A stretch of 64,000 bases of DNA from Rhodopseudomonas pentothenatexigens (GTDB taxonomy: Bacteria > Pseudomonadota > Alphaproteobacteria > Rhizobiales > Xanthobacteraceae), in the NCBI RefSeq assembly GCF_900218015.1, contig NZ_UFQQ01000017.1:1-64000 (forward strand), in the 5' to 3' direction. Made by a program: the position numbers and the translations under genes. Numbering within the stretch: the stretch's first letter is position 1; each line of letters opens with the position of its first letter. Shown here piece by piece: positions 18,852 to 33,505 of the stretch. The notes under the pieces are model-generated. The model saw only the letters and a program-made list of their open reading frames with translations. It searched no databases and had not been told where the DNA came from.

Positions 18852-19008
18852 GTCATTCCGGGGCGCGCGTAGCGCGAGCCCGGAATCCATAACCACCGAA
18901 TGAGTTGTTGCGCCAATCACCCTCGCCCAGTGCATCACAGCTTGCACGGGACATATGGATTCCGGGCTCGCTCACTTCGTGAGCGCCCCGGAATGACAAA
19001 GGAGAGGC
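18852..19008. repeat. 157-bp intergenic repeat, left copy (brackets hicAB)
   Basis: It starts GTCATTCCGGGGCGCGCG and ends CGCCCCGGAATGACAAAGGAGAGG; its ends are inverted repeats of each other. A second copy in the same orientation lies at 19799-19954 and differs mainly in a roughly 30-base central stretch. The two copies enclose the hicA-hicB module exactly. Confidence 0.92.
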
Positions 19009-19059: not shown

Positions 19060-19497
19060 TCAGGCCGCCACTTCGACTCCGATGACTAGCCGCTTGCCGA
19101 GCGCACGTAACGCCTCGACCATTGCCGGCAATTTGGTCGGGTGCCGTGGATCGAGGATTCGGCGAACCTCCTTCTCGTCTTTGCCCATCCGGCGCGCCAA
19201 TTCGCTTTTGTTGATACCAGCCTCCGCGAAGGCCTCCAGGACTGCCAGTTTCGCAGCGACCTCGGGGGCAACTGCGATCATGATAAGCCCCTTGGTCTTG
19301 GTCTTCGCTTTCGGCAGCGGAAGACCGCGCTGCGGATAGCTCAGAAGCGCCAGACCGAGAGCTTCCTCCGCCTGCACGCGGGCGTCAGCCATATCGTCAC
19401 CCTGAGTGATCGCCTCGGGTACATCGGGAAAACTCACCACGACGACGCCGCGCCGATCTCCCGGCTCGAATTCTGCCGCGTAGGCGTAGGTTTTCAT
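19060..19497 (-). CDS. hicB: HicB-type antitoxin
   Basis: The 145-residue antitoxin has the HicB degraded RNase H-like fold at the N-terminus (MKTYAYAAEFEPGD, VVVSFPDVPEAITQGD, and A-x-x-x-A-x-E-A-L-G-L-A-L) and a C-terminal helix-turn-helix (NKSELARRMGKDEKEVRRILD) for autoregulation. The ATG at 19497 overlaps the hicA stop by four bases; a TTG two codons earlier is less likely. It binds and masks HicA. The gene order toxin-antitoxin (hicA first) is standard for this family. Confidence 0.95.
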   Translation of the reverse strand: MKTYAYAAEFEPGDRRGVVVVSFPDVPEAITQGDDMADARVQAEEALGLALLSYPQRGLPLPKAKTKTKGLIMIAVAPEVAAKLAVLEAFAEAGINKSELARRMGKDEKEVRRILDPRHPTKLPAMVEALRALGKRLVIGVEVAA

Positions 19498-19733
19498 AGG
19501 CAAATCCTCATTCGGTGGCCACAGTCGGCCGATTGGTCTGCAAGACCCAGATGTTTTCGTATCTTCCTCGCGGTCTTGGGATCGATCTCACGACTCGGCA
19601 ATGTCGTCAGGCGATCGCCGACGAACACCATCGCGTGACCGCCTTTGCCTTTGCGATAGTCGACGCGAAAGCGCAGCCCGCGAGCCTGGGCCTCTTCGCG
19701 CAACTCCGCGATGAACCGATCACGCTTGTCCAT
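19494..19733 (-). CDS. hicA: HicA-type mRNA interferase toxin
   Basis: This 79-residue protein shows the HicA double-stranded RNA-binding fold with the catalytic-histidine segment GKGGHAMVFVGDR and the RKIRKHLGL C-terminal helix. HicA cleaves mRNA and tmRNA until bound by HicB. It starts at an ATG at 19733 and overlaps hicB by four bases. The N-terminal part (FIAELREEAQARGLRFRVDYRKGKGGH) is longer than in minimal HicA proteins of about 60 residues but fits the family. Confidence 0.92.
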   Translation of the reverse strand: MDKRDRFIAELREEAQARGLRFRVDYRKGKGGHAMVFVGDRLTTLPSREIDPKTARKIRKHLGLADQSADCGHRMRICL

Positions 19734-19798: not shown

Positions 19799-19954
19799 GT
19801 CATTCCGGGGCGCGCGTAGCGCGAGCCCGGAATCCATAACCACCGAATGAGTTGTTGCGCTAATCCCCCGGCCCCTGTGCTTCACAGCTAGCACGGCGCA
19901 TATGGATTCCGGGCTCGCTCACTTCGTGAGCGCCCCGGAATGACAAAGGAGAGG
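19799..19954. repeat. 156-bp intergenic repeat, right copy (brackets hicAB)
   Basis: Direct repeat of 18852-19008, identical over the first ~73 bases and last ~50 bases by eye, with substitutions in the middle (for example GCGCTAATCCCCC against GCGCCAATCACCC). It lies between hicA and the OsmC gene. Confidence 0.92.
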
Positions 19955-24347: not shown

Positions 24348-24869
24348 ATGCTGGGCAAACTGCTCGGTTACGCGTCGGCGTTGCTGGCTTGGATCGGCGG
24401 CGTCGCGCTGGTGCTGATGATGCTGCACATCGCAGCCGACGTCGTCGCCCGCTATGTCTTCAATGCGCCGCTGCACGGGACGGTTGAGATCGTCTCCGCC
24501 TACTACATGGTCGCCGTGGTGTTCCTGCCGCTGGCGATGATCGAGCGCGCCAACGGCCACATCGTCGTCGAACTCGCCACCCAGCATTTCCCGCGGCGGA
24601 TCCAGGACGCGCTGATCGGCGTGGTGGCGCTGCTGTCGGCGGCGTATTTCGGCGCCTTCGCCTGGCAGACCGGCGGTGACGCCATCAAGAAATACGAGAT
24701 CGGCGAACAGGCCCTCGGCACCGTCGCGGTGACGGTGTGGCCGACGCGATTCTTCCTGCCGATCGGCTGCGGCATGATCGCGCTGGTGCTGGTCTACAAG
24801 GCGGTCCGACTGTTCAGAGGCGACCGCAAGGTGCTGCAACCTCACGTCGCGCGCGAAGCGATCGAATAA
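24348..24869 (+). CDS. TRAP transporter small permease (DctQ type)
   Basis: The 173-residue protein has four membrane helices and the DctQ signatures DVVARYVFNAPLHGTVEI and MIERANGHIVVELATQHFP. It is the small membrane subunit that stabilises the large permease in tripartite ATP-independent periplasmic transport. GGGGGGACAC precedes the ATG. The 220 bases before it contain a TTGACA at about 24242 that might be part of a promoter. First gene of a three-gene TRAP operon with dctM- and dctP-type partners. Confidence 0.93.
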   Translation: MLGKLLGYASALLAWIGGVALVLMMLHIAADVVARYVFNAPLHGTVEIVSAYYMVAVVFLPLAMIERANGHIVVELATQHFPRRIQDALIGVVALLSAAYFGAFAWQTGGDAIKKYEIGEQALGTVAVTVWPTRFFLPIGCGMIALVLVYKAVRLFRGDRKVLQPHVAREAIE

Positions 24870-24901
24870 AAAAAAGCCGAGCGCAGGGGGAGGCGCCGAC
24901 G

Positions 24902-26209
24902 ATGGATGATCTGACGCTGAGCGGGGTCGTGCTCGGCCTGCTGATCGTGGCGATGCTGCTGCGGGTGCCGGTCGGCGTCGCACTGGGCGGACTGTCGTTC
25001 GCCGGCATCTGGGCGATGCTCGGCCCGCGCGTGGCGTGGGGCACGCTGACGTCGATGCCGTACGATTTCATCTCGCACTGGACGCTGAGTTCGGTGCCGA
25101 TGTTCCTGCTGATGGGCTACATCTGCTTCCACTCGCAGCTCACCGACGGCCTGTTCCGGGTGGCCCGCGCCTGGCTGTCGTGGATGCCGGGCGGCCTCGC
25201 GGTGGCCTCGGTCGGCGCCGCCGCCGGGTTTTCGGCGGTCACCGGGTCGTCGCTGGCCTGCGCCGCCGCGATGGGCCGGATCGCGATCCCCGAGATGCTG
25301 CGCAGCAAGTATCATCCCGGCCTCGCCGCCGGCACTGTCGCGGTCGCCGGCACCATCGGCTCGATGATCCCGCCCAGCATCCTGCTGCTGGTCTACGGCA
25401 TCTACGCCGAGCTGCCGATCAGCAAGCTGTTCATCGCCGGCGTGGTGCCGGGGCTGCTCACCGCCGTGCTGTACGCCGCGATGATCGTCACCCGCGTCAA
25501 GCTGAACCCGTCGCTGGCGCCGCGGATCACCGAGCGCGTCACCTGGGCCGACCGCTTCGGCGCGTTCCGCGGCACCTGGCCGGTGCTGGTGCTGATCTTC
25601 GGCGTGTTCGGCGGGCTGTTCGGCGGCGTGTTCACCCCGACCGAAGCCGGCGGCATCGGCGCGCTGCTGGCGTTCGTGATCGGCTTCGCGCAGCGCACTT
25701 TGACCTGGGACAAGATCAAGCTCGCCATCACCGAGACGCTGGTGACCACCGGCTCGATCTTCATCATCGCCATCGGAGCGCTGCTGCTGACCCGGTTCCT
25801 GGCGCTGTCCGGCTTCACCGACTTCATCTCCAGCATCGTGATCGAGGGCCAGATCTCGCCGCTGATGCTGGTGCTCGGCACCATGGCGGTGCTGCTGTTC
25901 CTCGGCTGCTTTCTCGACCCGATCGGCATCATGCTGCTGACGCTGCCGGTGTTCCTGCCGGCGGTCGAGAAGCTGCATGTCGACCTGATCTGGTACGGCA
26001 TCCTGCTGACCAAGCTGCTGGAGATAGGGCTGATCACGCCGCCGGTCGGGCTCAATGTCTTCGTCATTAAAGGCATCGTCGGCGACACGATTCCGATCGA
26101 GACGATCTTCCGCGGGATTCTCTGGTTCCTGGTCGCCGACCTGATCTGCGTCGCGCTGCTGGTCGCGTTCCCGCAGATCGCCACCTACCTGACCACGCTG
26201 GTCAACTGA
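24902..26209 (+). CDS. TRAP transporter large permease (DctM type)
   Basis: The 435-residue protein is the sodium-coupled large permease with about twelve helices. The elevator-domain motifs are visible, including AAAGFSAVTGSSLACAAAMG, GTVAVAGTIGSMIPPSI and GCFLDPIGIMLLTLPVFLP, and the end PPVGLNVFVIKG. GGGGGAGGCG precedes the ATG at 24902. It lies 32 bases after the small permease and 66 bases before the binding protein. Confidence 0.95.
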   Translation: MDDLTLSGVVLGLLIVAMLLRVPVGVALGGLSFAGIWAMLGPRVAWGTLTSMPYDFISHWTLSSVPMFLLMGYICFHSQLTDGLFRVARAWLSWMPGGLAVASVGAAAGFSAVTGSSLACAAAMGRIAIPEMLRSKYHPGLAAGTVAVAGTIGSMIPPSILLLVYGIYAELPISKLFIAGVVPGLLTAVLYAAMIVTRVKLNPSLAPRITERVTWADRFGAFRGTWPVLVLIFGVFGGLFGGVFTPTEAGGIGALLAFVIGFAQRTLTWDKIKLAITETLVTTGSIFIIAIGALLLTRFLALSGFTDFISSIVIEGQISPLMLVLGTMAVLLFLGCFLDPIGIMLLTLPVFLPAVEKLHVDLIWYGILLTKLLEIGLITPPVGLNVFVIKGIVGDTIPIETIFRGILWFLVADLICVALLVAFPQIATYLTTLVN

Positions 26210-26275
26210 TCGGAGCAACTCGAGGACACACCGAGGACGGCGAAAAGCCGCATACCAAGCACAGGGAGAAACGAC

Positions 26276-27406
26276 ATGAAGGCAAAATGGATGGCCGCGA
26301 CCGCACTGGCGTTCGCGCTCGCACTCGGCGCCTCGGGCAGCGCCTCGGCGACGACGCTGAAGGCGGTGCATTATCTGTCGCCGAAGCACCCGGTCGGTCT
26401 CGGCTACGAGACCTTCGCCGAAGAGGTGAAGAAGAACACCAACGGCGAAGTCACCGTCCGGATCTTCCCGGCCGAATCGCTGCTCGGCGCCAAGGCGATC
26501 TCCGACGGCATCCGCGACCAGGTCGCCGACGTCGGCTTCGCCACCATGAGCTACACCCCGTCGTATTATCCCTACGGCGTGATGCTCAACGATCTGGCGA
26601 TGGTCGGCGAGAACGACATGGCGGCCGCGATGGCGATCACCGAGCTGTTCAACCTGCATTGCCAGCCGTGTCTCGCCGAATACACCAAGCAGAACCAACT
26701 GTTCGGCAGCGGCATGAGCACCGCGCCCTATGTGCTGATCGCCAAGGGCGACATCAATTCGCTGGAGAAGATCAAGGGCAAGAAGCTGCGCGCCGGCGGC
26801 GCGCTGTGGGACCGCTTCGCCAAATCGGTCGGCGCCACCGGCGTCAACGTGCCGTCGTCCGAAATGTACGAGACGCTGTCGCGCGGCATCATCGACGCCG
26901 CGGTCTATGCGGTCGGCGGGCTCAAGACCCACGGCCTCGCCGATACAGCGGGCCAAGTGGTGTTGCTCAATCTCGGCTCATTCCGCTCCGGCAATCTGTA
27001 TTCGATCAACCTCGACACCTGGTCGAAGATGACGACGCCGCAGCGCGCCGGCATCCTCAAGGCGATCCCGGTGGCGGTGGTCAAGACCGTCAACGAATAT
27101 CACGCTGGCGACAAGGCCGCGCTCGAACTCGCCAAGGAGAAGAAGGTGCCGGTAGTGCAGCCGGATCCGGGACTGCTCGCCGCGCGCAAGGACTTCGTCG
27201 AAAAGGATCTGCCCGGCATCGTCGAGGCCGCCAAGAAGAAGGGCATCGAGAATGCCCAGGAATTCGTCGACAAATACAAGGAGCTGCTGGCGAAATACGA
27301 AAAGCTGATCGGCCCGATCGAGAACGATCCGAAGAAGCTCAGCGACATGTTCTACAACGAGGTCTACGCCAAGCTCGACCCGGCGACCTTCGGGGTGAAG
27401 AAGTAA
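26276..27406 (+). CDS. TRAP transporter periplasmic substrate-binding protein (DctP type)
   Basis: The 376-residue protein has a cleavable signal peptide (MKAKWMAATALAFALALGAS...SASA) and the DctP fold: YETFAEEVKKNTNGEVTVRIFPAESLLGA, a region where an arginine (KKLRAGG) would bind the ligand carboxylate, and SEMYETLSRGIIDAAV. TRAP systems of this kind import organic acids; the ligand here is unknown. GGGAGAAACGAC precedes the ATG. The C-terminal helical tail is lysine-rich. A terminator follows. Confidence 0.94.
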   Translation: MKAKWMAATALAFALALGASGSASATTLKAVHYLSPKHPVGLGYETFAEEVKKNTNGEVTVRIFPAESLLGAKAISDGIRDQVADVGFATMSYTPSYYPYGVMLNDLAMVGENDMAAAMAITELFNLHCQPCLAEYTKQNQLFGSGMSTAPYVLIAKGDINSLEKIKGKKLRAGGALWDRFAKSVGATGVNVPSSEMYETLSRGIIDAAVYAVGGLKTHGLADTAGQVVLLNLGSFRSGNLYSINLDTWSKMTTPQRAGILKAIPVAVVKTVNEYHAGDKAALELAKEKKVPVVQPDPGLLAARKDFVEKDLPGIVEAAKKKGIENAQEFVDKYKELLAKYEKLIGPIENDPKKLSDMFYNEVYAKLDPATFGVKK

Positions 27407-30335: not shown

Positions 30336-30461
30336 AAAACCGAAACCGATCCTGTCGCCACCGAGAGCTGCGCGAGCCCCCGCCCAACCGATTCTTAACA
30401 TCCGGTTGCTAGATCATGCCGATGCCGGATACGGCGGTTTCGGGGAAGCGCTTTGGCTGTC

Positions 30462-31823
30462 ATGGATTCTCCACCAGCAACGCCTTTGGCAGCGCTGAAG
30501 GCCCGCCTCGCCGCGCTGTTCGGCGGCTCGAACGAAGCTTCGCTCACCAACCGGCTCGCCGGCACCATCTTTCTGATCCGCGTGGTCAGCGCGGGGTTGG
30601 CTTACGGCGCCCAGATCCTGCTGGCGCGATGGATGGGGGCGTCTGACTACGGCATCTACGTCTATGTCTGGACCTGGGTGCTGCTGCTTGGCTCGATGCT
30701 GGATTTCGGCATCTCCGCCTCGGCGCAGAAGATCATCCCGGAATACCGCGCGCGCGGCGAGCTCGACCGGCTGCGGGGCTTTCTGTCCGGCAGCCGCTGG
30801 GGCACGCTGGCAGCTTCCAGCTTGGTGTCGCTCCTGCTGGCCGCGGTGGTGTGGGCACTATCGCCGCTGGTCGGCGATGCGACCGTGGTGCCGCTGTATC
30901 TCGGCTGTCTGACGCTGCCCGCCTTCGTGGTCGCCAACACCCAGGACGGCATCGCCCGTTCGCACGACTGGATGCGGCTCGGCCTGATGCCGCAATTCAT
31001 CATCCGGCAGGCGCTGATCATCGGCTTCACCGCCGGATTGTTCGTGCTCGGCTTCGATCTCGGCGCGGTCGCAGCGATGGCGGCGAGCTGCGCGGCGGTG
31101 TGGATCGCGATGCTCGGGCAGATGATCGCGCTCAATCGCCGACTCGCCGGTCATGTCCCGGCCGGTCCCCGCGCCTACGACATCCGCGGCTGGCTCGCGA
31201 CTTCGCTGCCGATCCTGCTGGTCGAGAGCTTCTATCTGCTGTTGTCCTACACCGACGTGCTGGTGCTGCAGCAGTTCAGCACGCCTGAAGAGGTCGGCAT
31301 CTACTATGCGGTGGTCAAAACGCTGGCGCTGGTGTCGTTCATTCACTACGCGATGTCGGCGAGCACCGCCCACCGCTTCACCGAATACAGCGTCGCCGGC
31401 GACAATGTGCGGCTCGCCGCCTATGTCCGTCACGCGATCGTGTGGACGTTCTGGCCGTCGCTGGCGGCGACCCTGGCGCTGCTGGCGCTCGGCAAGCCGC
31501 TGCTGTGGCTGTTCGGCCCGCAGTTCACCGCCGGCTACGGCATCATGTTCGTCGCCGCGATCGGCCTGATGGTCCGCGCCGCGATCGGCCCGGTCGAGCG
31601 GTTGCTCAACATGCTCGGCCACCAGCACGTCTGCGCGCTGGCCTATGCGCTGGCGTTCGCGGTCAATCTGGCGCTGTGCCTGATCCTGGTGCCCCGCTTC
31701 GGCGGCTACGGCGCTGCCGCCGCCACCTCCGCGGCGCTCACTTTCGAAACCGTGCTGCTGTTCTGGATCGTCCGCAAACGCCTCGGCCTGCACGTGCTGG
31801 CGTTTGGCGCGAAGGCGCGCTGA
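30462..31823 (+). CDS. Polysaccharide flippase / MOP-family exporter
   Basis: The 453-residue protein has about twelve to fourteen hydrophobic helices and the start of the Wzx/polysaccharide biosynthesis fold (LAGTIFLIRVVSAGLAYGAQILLARWMGASDYGIYVYVWTW). Members flip lipid-linked sugars across the inner membrane for O-antigen, capsule or exopolysaccharide. I chose the ATG at 30462; a TTG at 30453 has better spacing to GGGGAAG. No glycosyltransferase genes are nearby, so the substrate is unknown. Its last 93 bases are duplicated, in diverged form, 725 bases downstream. Confidence 0.9.
   Translation: MDSPPATPLAALKARLAALFGGSNEASLTNRLAGTIFLIRVVSAGLAYGAQILLARWMGASDYGIYVYVWTWVLLLGSMLDFGISASAQKIIPEYRARGELDRLRGFLSGSRWGTLAASSLVSLLLAAVVWALSPLVGDATVVPLYLGCLTLPAFVVANTQDGIARSHDWMRLGLMPQFIIRQALIIGFTAGLFVLGFDLGAVAAMAASCAAVWIAMLGQMIALNRRLAGHVPAGPRAYDIRGWLATSLPILLVESFYLLLSYTDVLVLQQFSTPEEVGIYYAVVKTLALVSFIHYAMSASTAHRFTEYSVAGDNVRLAAYVRHAIVWTFWPSLAATLALLALGKPLLWLFGPQFTAGYGIMFVAAIGLMVRAAIGPVERLLNMLGHQHVCALAYALAFAVNLALCLILVPRFGGYGAAAATSAALTFETVLLFWIVRKRLGLHVLAFGAKAR
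31731..31823 (+). repeat. Flippase 3' end, left member of a direct repeat
   Basis: The last 31 codons and stop of the flippase gene recur in the same orientation at 32458-32547. The first 72 bases match at about 64 positions; the last few codons differ. The pair brackets brnT-brnA. Confidence 0.88.
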
Positions 31824-31869
31824 AGACAGTCTGAGCCGTTTCCGCCGCCCCGGAGGGGCGACAGATTGA

Positions 31870-31887
31870 CATTTGTCTATACAAATG
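31870..31887. promoter_or_regulatory. Palindromic operator upstream of brnT
   Basis: CATTTGT and ACAAATG form perfect 7-bp arms around CTAT, 23 bases before the brnT start. BrnA with BrnT is known to autorepress through such a site. The block is AT-rich against a GC-rich background. Confidence 0.65.
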
Positions 31888-31910
31888 CCTATTTTAGATA
31901 GAGGCAGCCG

Positions 31911-32216
31911 ATGGAAGTTGCCGGCTTTGATTGGGACCTCGGCAATCGCGCCAAGTGCGCCAGACATGGCGTGACCGTTGCAGAGATCGAAGGCCTATTC
32001 CGCGGGCCGATCAGCGTGTTTCCCGATCCGGCGCATTCCTCATCCGAGGAGCGCTTCAAGGCCATCGGCCGGACCGAAACGGGACGGATGGTGTTTGTGG
32101 TGTTCACGCTCAGGAGCCGTTCCGATCGAACACTCATTCGCCCGATCAGCGCCCGCTATATGCACGCCAAGGAAATCGCCGCCTATGAAGAAGAAGTTGC
32201 CAAAGCTGGAAAGTGA
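31911..32216 (+). CDS. brnT: BrnT-type ribonuclease toxin
   Basis: The 101-residue toxin has the BrnT (DUF497) fold with the typical start FDWDLGNRAKCARHGVTVAEIE, the catalytic-face segments SSSEERFKAIGRTETGRMVFVVFTLR and the closing IRPISARYMHAKEIAAYEE. BrnT is a RelE-like translation-blocking RNase. The ATG follows a GAGGCAGCCG stretch. Toxin precedes antitoxin, as in characterised brnTA, and the two genes overlap by 32 bases. The module lies immediately after the flippase stop and before a copy of the flippase tail. Confidence 0.94.
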   Translation: MEVAGFDWDLGNRAKCARHGVTVAEIEGLFRGPISVFPDPAHSSSEERFKAIGRTETGRMVFVVFTLRSRSDRTLIRPISARYMHAKEIAAYEEEVAKAGK

Positions 32217-32445
32217 CGCCCAAGCGGAAGCCTTCGTCGCGAAGGCCGACCTCGGTGATTACGACCTGTCGGGCATGGTCACCATGCAGTTCGAGATGAA
32301 ACCGAAAGACAAGTCGGTCAACCTCAGGCTGCCGGAACAACTGCTCTCCGCGGTGCGCCAGCAGGCGAAGGCCGCGGGTGTCCCCTATCAGCGCTACATC
32401 CGGATGGCTCTGGAGCAAGCGGTGCAAAAGCAAGCGAAGAGATAG
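32185..32445 (+). CDS. brnA: BrnA-type antitoxin
   Basis: The 86-residue antitoxin has an N-terminal acidic toxin-binding region (ESDAQAEAFVAKADLGDYDLSG) and a C-terminal ribbon-helix-helix domain (KSVNLRLPEQLLSAVRQQAKAAGVPYQRYIRMALEQAV). The start ATG at 32185 lies within the end of brnT (32-base overlap in another frame), giving translational coupling. It should neutralise BrnT and repress the operon through the palindrome at 31870. Its stop is about five bases from the start of the duplicated flippase tail. Confidence 0.94.
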   Translation: MKKKLPKLESDAQAEAFVAKADLGDYDLSGMVTMQFEMKPKDKSVNLRLPEQLLSAVRQQAKAAGVPYQRYIRMALEQAVQKQAKR

Positions 32446-32449
32446 TCGC

Positions 32450-32547
32450 AAGCATCGGCGGCGCTGACCTTCGAGACCCTGCTGCTGTCCCGGATCGTCC
32501 GCAACCGCCTCGGCCCGCACGTGCTGGCGTTCGGGAAGACGGGGTGA
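32450..32547 (+). pseudogene. Diverged copy of the flippase 3' end
   Basis: Translated in the matching frame, this stretch reads as the flippase C-terminus (AALTFETLLLSRIVRNRLG then PHVLAFGKTG and TGA) against AALTFETVLLFWIVRKRLG in the intact gene. About 89 percent of the first 72 bases match. The rest of the flippase is absent: brnA ends at 32445. It has no start codon or ribosome site, so it is a remnant, not a gene. It may be the original end of the flippase gene displaced by brnTA insertion. Confidence 0.85.
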
Positions 32548-32559
32548 GCGAGACTTATT

Positions 32560-32700
32560 TCATCACACTCACGTCGTCGCCCGGCTTGACCGGGCGACCA
32601 AGTATCCCAGAGACGAAATGCTCTGCAATACTGGTTCCTCCGCTTTCGCGGAGGATGACGTCGGTGGTGGGGCGGACGCTTACGACCCGCACAGGCACTG
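32560..32700. repeat. Palindromic intergenic repeat
   Basis: CACGTCGTCGCCCGGCTTGACCGGGCGAC near 32570 and CCTCCGCTTTCGCGGAGGATGACGTCGGTGG near 32638 make the paired arms of a dispersed element between the flippase remnant and bdhA. Confidence 0.6.
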
Positions 32701-32716
32701 AAGCTGCTGGTGCGGC

Positions 32717-33505
32717 TTACGCCGCAGTCCAGCCGCCGTCCATCGACAGGTTGGCGCCGGTGATCTGGCTGGCGTCGTCGCCGCAGAGATAGACCGCGAG
32801 GGCGGCGACCTGCTCTGGCGTGACGAACTGTTTGGTCGGCTGGGCGGCCAGCAGGACGTCGTTGATCACCTGCTCCTTGGTCAGACCGCGCGCCTTCATG
32901 GTGTCGGGGATCTGCTTCTCGACCAGCGGCGTCCAAACGTAGCCGGGCGAGATGCAGTTGCAGGTGATCTTGTGGGTGGCGAGCTCCAGCGCCACGGTCT
33001 TGGTCAGGCCGGCGATGCCGTGCTTGGCAGCCACATAGGCCGACTTGAACGGCGACGCGACCAGCGAATGCGCCGAGGCGGTGTTGATGATGCGACCCCA
33101 GCCGCGCTTCTTCATCCCCGGCACCGCGGCGCGGATGCCGTGGAACGCCGACGACAGGTTGATGCCGATGATCGCGTCCCACTTCTCGATCGGGAAGTCT
33201 TCGACCGGCGAGACGAACTGGATGCCGGCGTTGTTGACCAGAATGTCGACCGAGCCGAAGGTGGTCTCGCCGAGCTTGATCATCTCGGCGATCTCGGCCG
33301 GCTTCAGCATGTCGGCCGGCGAGTACACCGCCTTGACGGCGAAGTCGCTCTCGATCGCCTTGCGCTCCTTCTCGATCGCGTCAGCTTCGCCCATGCCGTT
33401 GATCACGACGTTGGCGCCGGCCTTGGCGAAGGCGCGCGCGTAGCTGAGCCCGATGCCCGAGGTCGAGCCGGTCACGACCGCGGTCTTGCCTGTCAGATTC
33501 GTCAT
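32717..33505 (-). CDS. bdhA: 3-hydroxybutyrate dehydrogenase
   Basis: The 262-residue short-chain dehydrogenase has the NAD-binding TGSTSGIG loop, the NNAGIQFVSPVEDFP segment typical of 3-hydroxybutyrate dehydrogenases, and the catalytic Ser...YVAAKHG (Y-x3-K). It interconverts (R)-3-hydroxybutyrate and acetoacetate in polyhydroxybutyrate turnover. AGGAGCGG precedes the ATG at 33505. It follows the patatin gene with a 48-base gap in the same direction; this gene pair is frequent in proteobacteria and suggests lipid or PHB mobilisation. Confidence 0.95.
   Translation of the reverse strand: MTNLTGKTAVVTGSTSGIGLSYARAFAKAGANVVINGMGEADAIEKERKAIESDFAVKAVYSPADMLKPAEIAEMIKLGETTFGSVDILVNNAGIQFVSPVEDFPIEKWDAIIGINLSSAFHGIRAAVPGMKKRGWGRIINTASAHSLVASPFKSAYVAAKHGIAGLTKTVALELATHKITCNCISPGYVWTPLVEKQIPDTMKARGLTKEQVINDVLLAAQPTKQFVTPEQVAALAVYLCGDDASQITGANLSMDGGWTAA

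Follow-up and report, generated by a model that had tools for sequence, protein, structure and literature searches.

Integrative elements that use the 3′ ends of genes or tRNAs as their targets, and their integrase-less derivatives (CIMEs), carry a copy of that end which restores the gene, while its native end comes to lie beyond the element. For restriction-modification (RM) units, insertion with a long target duplication was reportedly described by Nobusato et al. in 2000 (Gene 259:99). According to three articles, the insertion of RM units is accompanied by target duplications that are long and variable, on the order of 100 bp (PMC3874152, PMC3031569, PMC1643837), and a review cites Nobusato et al. 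(2000) on an apparent mobility common to RM and toxin-antitoxin (TA) systems (PMC2654758). Among the matches listed from the open-licence literature, no title or abstract opening described TA modules inserted with a long target duplication. The movement of stand-alone chromosomal TA pairs without a visible mobile element is the open question addressed by the locus described here.

The locus lies in a stretch of 64,000 nt of a Rhodopseudomonas pentothenatexigens contig (NZ_UFQQ01000017.1, positions 1 to 64,000; hereafter the window), where a toxin gene and an antitoxin gene, together brnTA, stand between the end of a flippase-type gene and a second copy, or tail, of that end (Table 1). We class this arrangement as a variant of the RM-type insertion with long target duplication, outside strict membership of that group. 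Alike are the small addiction-type unit without transposase or integrase, the flanking target repeats of variable length (80 nt here, and 132 and 395 nt in two similar layouts, L246 and L435, presented below) and the presence or absence of the unit with an empty site, found for the flippase case in genomes G005, G015 and G004. It differs in its cargo, a type II TA pair instead of RM genes, and in its target, which is the 3′ end of a gene, so that the gene stays whole. With integrative elements and CIMEs the locus shares the restored gene end and the displacement of the native end to the far side, whereas the insert is 647 bp long (about 0.65 kb) and holds no recombinase. As in the BrnT/BrnA family, there is a PF04365 toxin, an overlapping antitoxin gene and a palindrome in a promoter-like region; the antitoxin of the window is, however, of the PF12441 CopG type, while that of the L246 layout is a PF14384 BrnA.

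Table 1. Features of the flippase-brnTA locus, with positions in the window
Feature	Position	Strand	Basis
Flippase-type gene, Polysacc_synt PF01943, intact, with unusual last four codons AKAR	30453..31823	+	Pfam, locus comparison
Left tail copy, belonging to the functional flippase gene	31728..31807	+	repeat search
Last flippase codons and spacer, arrived with the TA module	31808..31910	+	locus comparison
Promoter-like TTGACA-18-TATTTT, putative function	31866..31895	+	sequence
Palindrome CATTTGT-CTAT-ACAAATG between the two promoter-like boxes	31870-31887		sequence
BrnT toxin gene, PF04365	31911..32216	+	Pfam
CopG/RHH antitoxin gene, PF12441, overlapping brnT	32185..32445	+	Pfam
Joint from antitoxin stop to right tail; also in XCP and G006 with small changes	32446..32454	+	
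Right tail, displaced native flippase 3′ end, decaying; aligned to 32534, KTG* end to 32547	32455..32547	+	
Native right flank, directly joined to the single tail in G005 (L014)	32548..32716	.	
SDR gene, conserved neighbour downstream	32717..33505	-	Pfam, locus comparison

The two tails form a direct repeat on the same strand with 88% identity and a spacing of 727, which is the longest repeat reported between 30 and 34 kb and reaches E = 2.3e-21 in a self-BLAST of the window. In the initial annotation the last 93 bases of the flippase gene were said to recur after brnTA, five bases behind the antitoxin gene and with the same C-terminus. The recurrence is real, but its aligned length is 80 nt and the copy begins 9 nt after the antitoxin stop; when translated, the right copy matches flippase residues 423-453 at 71%, while the last codons, AKAR* on the left and KTG* on the right, do not align with each other. 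The naming of the pair as brnT-brnA was likewise correct for the toxin, which matches PF04365 at 68.2 bits (cut-off 34.5), and not for its partner, which belongs to PF12441 and not to PF14384. The absence of a recombinase from the cargo was confirmed, as according to the ORF listing and Pfam the insert consists only of these two genes and the promoter-like stretch, the flippase gene being left intact. We take the two genes to be, most likely, an ordinary self-regulated addiction pair, as predicted from their families. An assembly artefact is excluded by the occurrence of the same layout in the assemblies of two further species, of which one consists of a single contig.

The relatives make it possible to decide which of the two tails is native. 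In a survey of 16 Rhodopseudomonas genomes, one per species, the flippase was found in 14, and the other two held only its distant relatives. Three genomes carry brnTA with two tails, namely that of the window (G000), G006 and G007 (strain XCP). The same 30 nt as in the promoter-like stretch of the window are present in XCP and G006, and in XCP the frame of brnT is apparently broken near its start. In G009 (strain 2.1.18), a brnTA with 74% nucleotide identity occupies the same place with one tail, and its spacer gave no match to that of the window. All ten flippase-bearing genomes without brnTA beside the flippase have one tail match each, the contigs of two of them (G010 and G013) ending about 760 and 220 nt past the flippase gene.

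The annotation had suggested looking at the 3′ end carried by strains without brnTA, and G005 proved informative in this respect. Its single tail (L014) is 92% identical to the right tail of the window over 93 nt, both with the KTG* end, and leads straight into the right flank of the window (94% over 963). Within the 80-nt repeat itself, the G005 tail resembles the left copy (96%) more than the right one, as a decaying right copy would lead one to expect; it is then the ends and the flank that decide the assignment. The right tail of XCP has an SKG* end followed by a parDE-like module, and the single tails of G015 and of G004, the latter with a shortened module, likewise continue into parDE. 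Because these three empty sites run into matching right flanks, it is the right tail that represents the native end of the locus, while the left one belongs to the functional gene. The proposal of an insertion at the 3′ end of a gene whose end is thereby re-made was thus upheld.

These data also bear on the other origin considered in the annotation, the relic of a tandem flippase duplication. In this reading, part of the flippase would have been doubled and brnTA would have entered between the copies, for which their shared orientation and C-terminus could speak. Such an origin is extremely improbable, as the right tail follows the antitoxin stop after 9 nt without any flippase body before it, and none of the ten flippase-bearing Rhodopseudomonas genomes lacking an adjacent brnTA has two tails. 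With neither a second flippase body nor a two-tail genome without brnTA, a relic of tandem duplication was rejected.

The layout could alternatively be read as the relic or passenger of a site-specific integrative element, with the tails as attL and attR and an integrase acting in trans or lost, as in CIMEs. Integration at a gene 3′ end with restoration would produce just this structure, the end of the gene coming from the element and the native end being displaced. Furthermore, a hicAB pair in another locus (L459) lies between tRNA-Val and a copy of the 3′ half of that tRNA (52 nt, 85%), by its layout a classical att situation. We nevertheless consider such an origin of the flippase locus unlikely. 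There is no integrase in the insert, and no recombinase was present among the 10 ORFs scanned of the 17 listed for 21-42 kb. XCP aside, none of the 80 flippase loci, two of which had less than 500 nt downstream, repeats more than 41 nt of its own 3′ region farther downstream, and in the 16 Rhodopseudomonas genomes the tail matched only at the flippase locus, among the matches listed. No larger element was found at the flippase site in these genomes, among the matches listed, or in the 80 loci. The lengths of the repeats at the different genes are also variable, from 52 to 395 nt.

In regard to the history of the insertion, the joint between antitoxin and tail is nearly identical in G000, XCP and G006, which are three species, and for this reason it was probably made once. 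The divergence of brnTA between the window and XCP (93.8% identity) or G006 (86.4%) is similar to that of the flippase body (91.5% and 89.6%), so the insertion is old. Of 8 segment trees, 6 unite G000 with G005 (support 63-100) and 5 unite G006 with G004 (support 61-100). The trees conflict in part, G004 falling with G015 in the sdr segment and G015 with G006 in dn2. Each of these sister pairs includes one member with brnTA and one without. Moreover, brnTA is present in some genomes and absent from others for either right flank, be it the KTG* form without parDE or the SKG* form with a parDE pair or remnant. As all four combinations of brnTA and flank exist, either recombination at the tails or recurrent clean loss is needed, and a single joint with later loss or transfer through the tails is probable. 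Losses account for much of the pattern of presence and absence, and one old insertion followed by three losses with zero transfer would fit nearly as well. The right tail of G006 contains a variant, GTGATG, that recurs in the left tail of this genome and in G004, and gives a weak hint of entry into the native tail of that lineage; being one site, it could also result from gene conversion.

As for the mechanism, we find it reasonably likely that brnTA was added at the flippase 3′ end, with about 80 bases of that end duplicated, through one homologous and one illegitimate joint, followed by recombination between tails. The incoming DNA would have consisted of a flippase end and brnTA, in the order seen in strain 2.1.18, which has no second tail, and would have recombined with a resident flippase locus without brnTA. 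One side would have been joined by homology within the flippase, and the other by an illegitimate joint of the antitoxin stop to the resident tail. The resulting direct repeats could then allow homologous recombination to delete the module cleanly, or the homology of the tails could carry it into the flippase end of another strain; such tail recombination would account for the finding that each sister pair, and likewise each type of right flank, includes loci with brnTA and loci without it. An order of gene and TA module without a second tail does exist, in G009 for the flippase and in G674 for recQ, and a homologous plus an illegitimate joint between such a haplotype and a resident without the TA module is the simplest route. 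The left-tail ends AKAR, AKAH and TNTR were seen only in the three two-tail genomes and, apart from XCP itself, in none of the 80 flippase loci, and the spacer at 31824-31910 was found, among the matches listed, only in the two-tail loci (L009, L011, L012 and L039). As a search for a donor that combines the AKAR ending with one tail found none, the joint is deduced from its product. The end product is identical for all routes, and they are indistinguishable from it.

A true target duplication would lead to the same product, if a widely staggered break were repaired by fill-in and end joining with a TA fragment captured in between, without homology to the donor. This would fit the insertion of RM units with long and variable duplications of about 100 bp, as described in PMC3874152, as well as the variation of the repeats from 80 to 132 and 395 nt and the lack of any TA pair within 1.5 kb of the citE-like gene in seven family relatives of the L246 case. 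We regard it as rather improbable, because the two known cases of gene-TA order with a single tail are what homology-based models predict, and because past the repeat the left end of the flippase differs from the native sequence.

Similar layouts were sought at other genes, a bracket being defined as a direct repeat of at least 50 nt and at least 80% identity with one copy on each side of the toxin gene, 400-1200 nt apart. This distance limit was fixed after two BrnT cases were known and before the HicA and ParE loci were inspected. The BrnT sample comprised 107 loci, the best 30 and 77 picked from a longer list for contig room, while the HicA and ParE samples were the best 30 and 20 picked loci each; two duplicates (L294, L318), L297-L299 as outside the sample and five loci at contig edges were dropped. 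Module-sized brackets were found at 2/106 BrnT, 1/48 HicA and 1/48 ParE loci, 4/202 in total. Among the other BrnT loci, one of the 106 is bracketed by a gene end (L246) and one by a REP-like repeat, recognised by eye (L237). Of the four module-sized brackets, those of L246 and L435 are formed by the 3′ ends of protein genes. The initial annotation had raised the possibility of a very small TA cassette that captures gene ends; as a habit of the brnTA family, this is supported only in part, L246 being one case in 106. In the best 30 loci of the antitoxin family, the three two-tail loci are bracketed and 27 have no long-repeat bracket, these 27 including G009 and G060 at the same flippase site and L145, which lacks upstream sequence. 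In L244 (1-1499), an antitoxin gene of the kind that partners BrnT occurs twice in near-identical form, with some 1.2 kb between the copies, and one copy has no evident toxin within this stretch.

In L246, the gene whose end adjoins a brnTA pair (PF04365, PF14384) is citE-like (PF03328), and the copy displaced from it, 132 nt long, has an orf and dnaG as neighbours. The native order is citE-orf-dnaG in G615 and citE-dnaG in G496, and in the other five of the seven relatives dnaG was not seen within 1.5 kb of citE; this empty site is drawn from other genera, the genus of G553 being represented by one genome. In L435, parDE (PF03693, PF05016) is found at the end of recQ with a displaced recQ copy of 395 nt, and a relative, G674, shows recQ-parDE with a single recQ tail. 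No empty recQ site was found, recQ being matched in 2/12 genomes of that genus. At the flippase, citE and recQ sites alike, the last TA stop lies at most 9 nt from a tail copy. A comparable bracket surrounds non-TA cargo in L391 (1766-2739), where the 3′ end of a gyrB-like gene recurs over 53 nt on the far side of a carbon-nitrogen-hydrolase-like gene, both genes being named by eye. Since parDE at recQ, hicAB at a tRNA and a non-TA gene at the gyrB-like end show the layout as well, it is not specific to brnTA. Just outside the gyrB-like bracket a HicAB-like pair was noted, also named by eye.

An enrichment of such brackets at TA loci, or their specificity to them, is unproven. The 4/202 module-sized brackets compare with 2/398 for shifted centres in the same loci (Fisher p = 0.10), where the two positives are the antitoxin paralogues of L244 and the gyrB-like layout of L391 with its non-TA cargo. 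In 400 kb of G000, excluding the window, 10/3160 centres were positive, all of them in the repeat-rich L173 (Poisson p 0.004). The 79 flippase loci gave 0/4975 centres and are mutually homologous, hence not independent, and a 20-kb set gave 6/1422, in each instance the citE case. Without the size limit, brackets are not in excess at TA loci over the baselines (4/202, or 2.0%, against 1.6% and 1.9% of centres in two large ones). Nor is there an excess in two further counts, 2/106 against 12/694 and, under the loosest bracket rule, 5/69 against 5/138, in which four clipped BrnT loci were mis-centred; the 4/202 count has these corrected.

It is conceivable, if doubtful, that type II TA pairs more generally are minimal mobile units, made up of a promoter and two genes and closing with the final stop codon, which settle at gene 3′ ends, re-make the end without harm to the host, and through the direct repeats so formed spread or are cleanly lost via host recombination without a recombinase of their own. 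The flippase-brnTA and citE-brnTA loci, for which the native order is known, would be examples, and recQ-parDE would be one by its layout. We give this generalisation a low probability because the bracket test was set after the BrnT cases, brackets of any size are not in excess, and recQ has no empty site. Nevertheless, the junction, the empty sites and the layout at several genes together make one route of TA movement testable, that of 3′-end insertion with duplication of the end, and tails that allow clean loss bear on the turnover of TA modules between close strains.

The interval between the flippase and SDR genes is a collecting place for small modules, with no address specific to brnTA. 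In the 13 genus genomes with a readable interval, brnTA is present in four and a parDE-like pair in seven, identified by Pfam in G015 and by likeness in the rest; a parDE remnant is found in G004, and parDE-like pairs occupy the interval also in a Tardiphaga MAG and in G060. In the latter, which belongs to another genus, an antitoxin gene without BrnT directly follows the parDE-like pair at the same site (L141, 961-1803). In XCP (L039, 6372-8000), brnTA, the decayed flippase tail and then the parDE-like pair form two TA modules in tandem, and in G006 (L012, 3600-3727) about 127 bp of unplaced sequence extends from the right tail to the common downstream flank.

Elsewhere in the window, a TRAP transporter block of about 3 kb (approximately 24500-27400; DctM, DctP) is shared, among 10 relatives, only with G005 and XCP. 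The interval separating pyk from an OsmC-like gene holds a HicAB-like pair on the minus strand (19060-19733), bracketed by a direct repeat of 156 nt (18852-19007 and 19799-19954, 93.6% identity), which is a dispersed palindromic element. This pair was recognised by eye, with a sub-threshold Pfam match for HicB and none for HicA. Judging from match coordinates, an apparent single 156-nt repeat without the pair occurs, for example, in G004, G006 and G007, the pair without repeats in G008, G009 and G011, the pair with the right repeat only in G005, and the pair with both repeats in G015.
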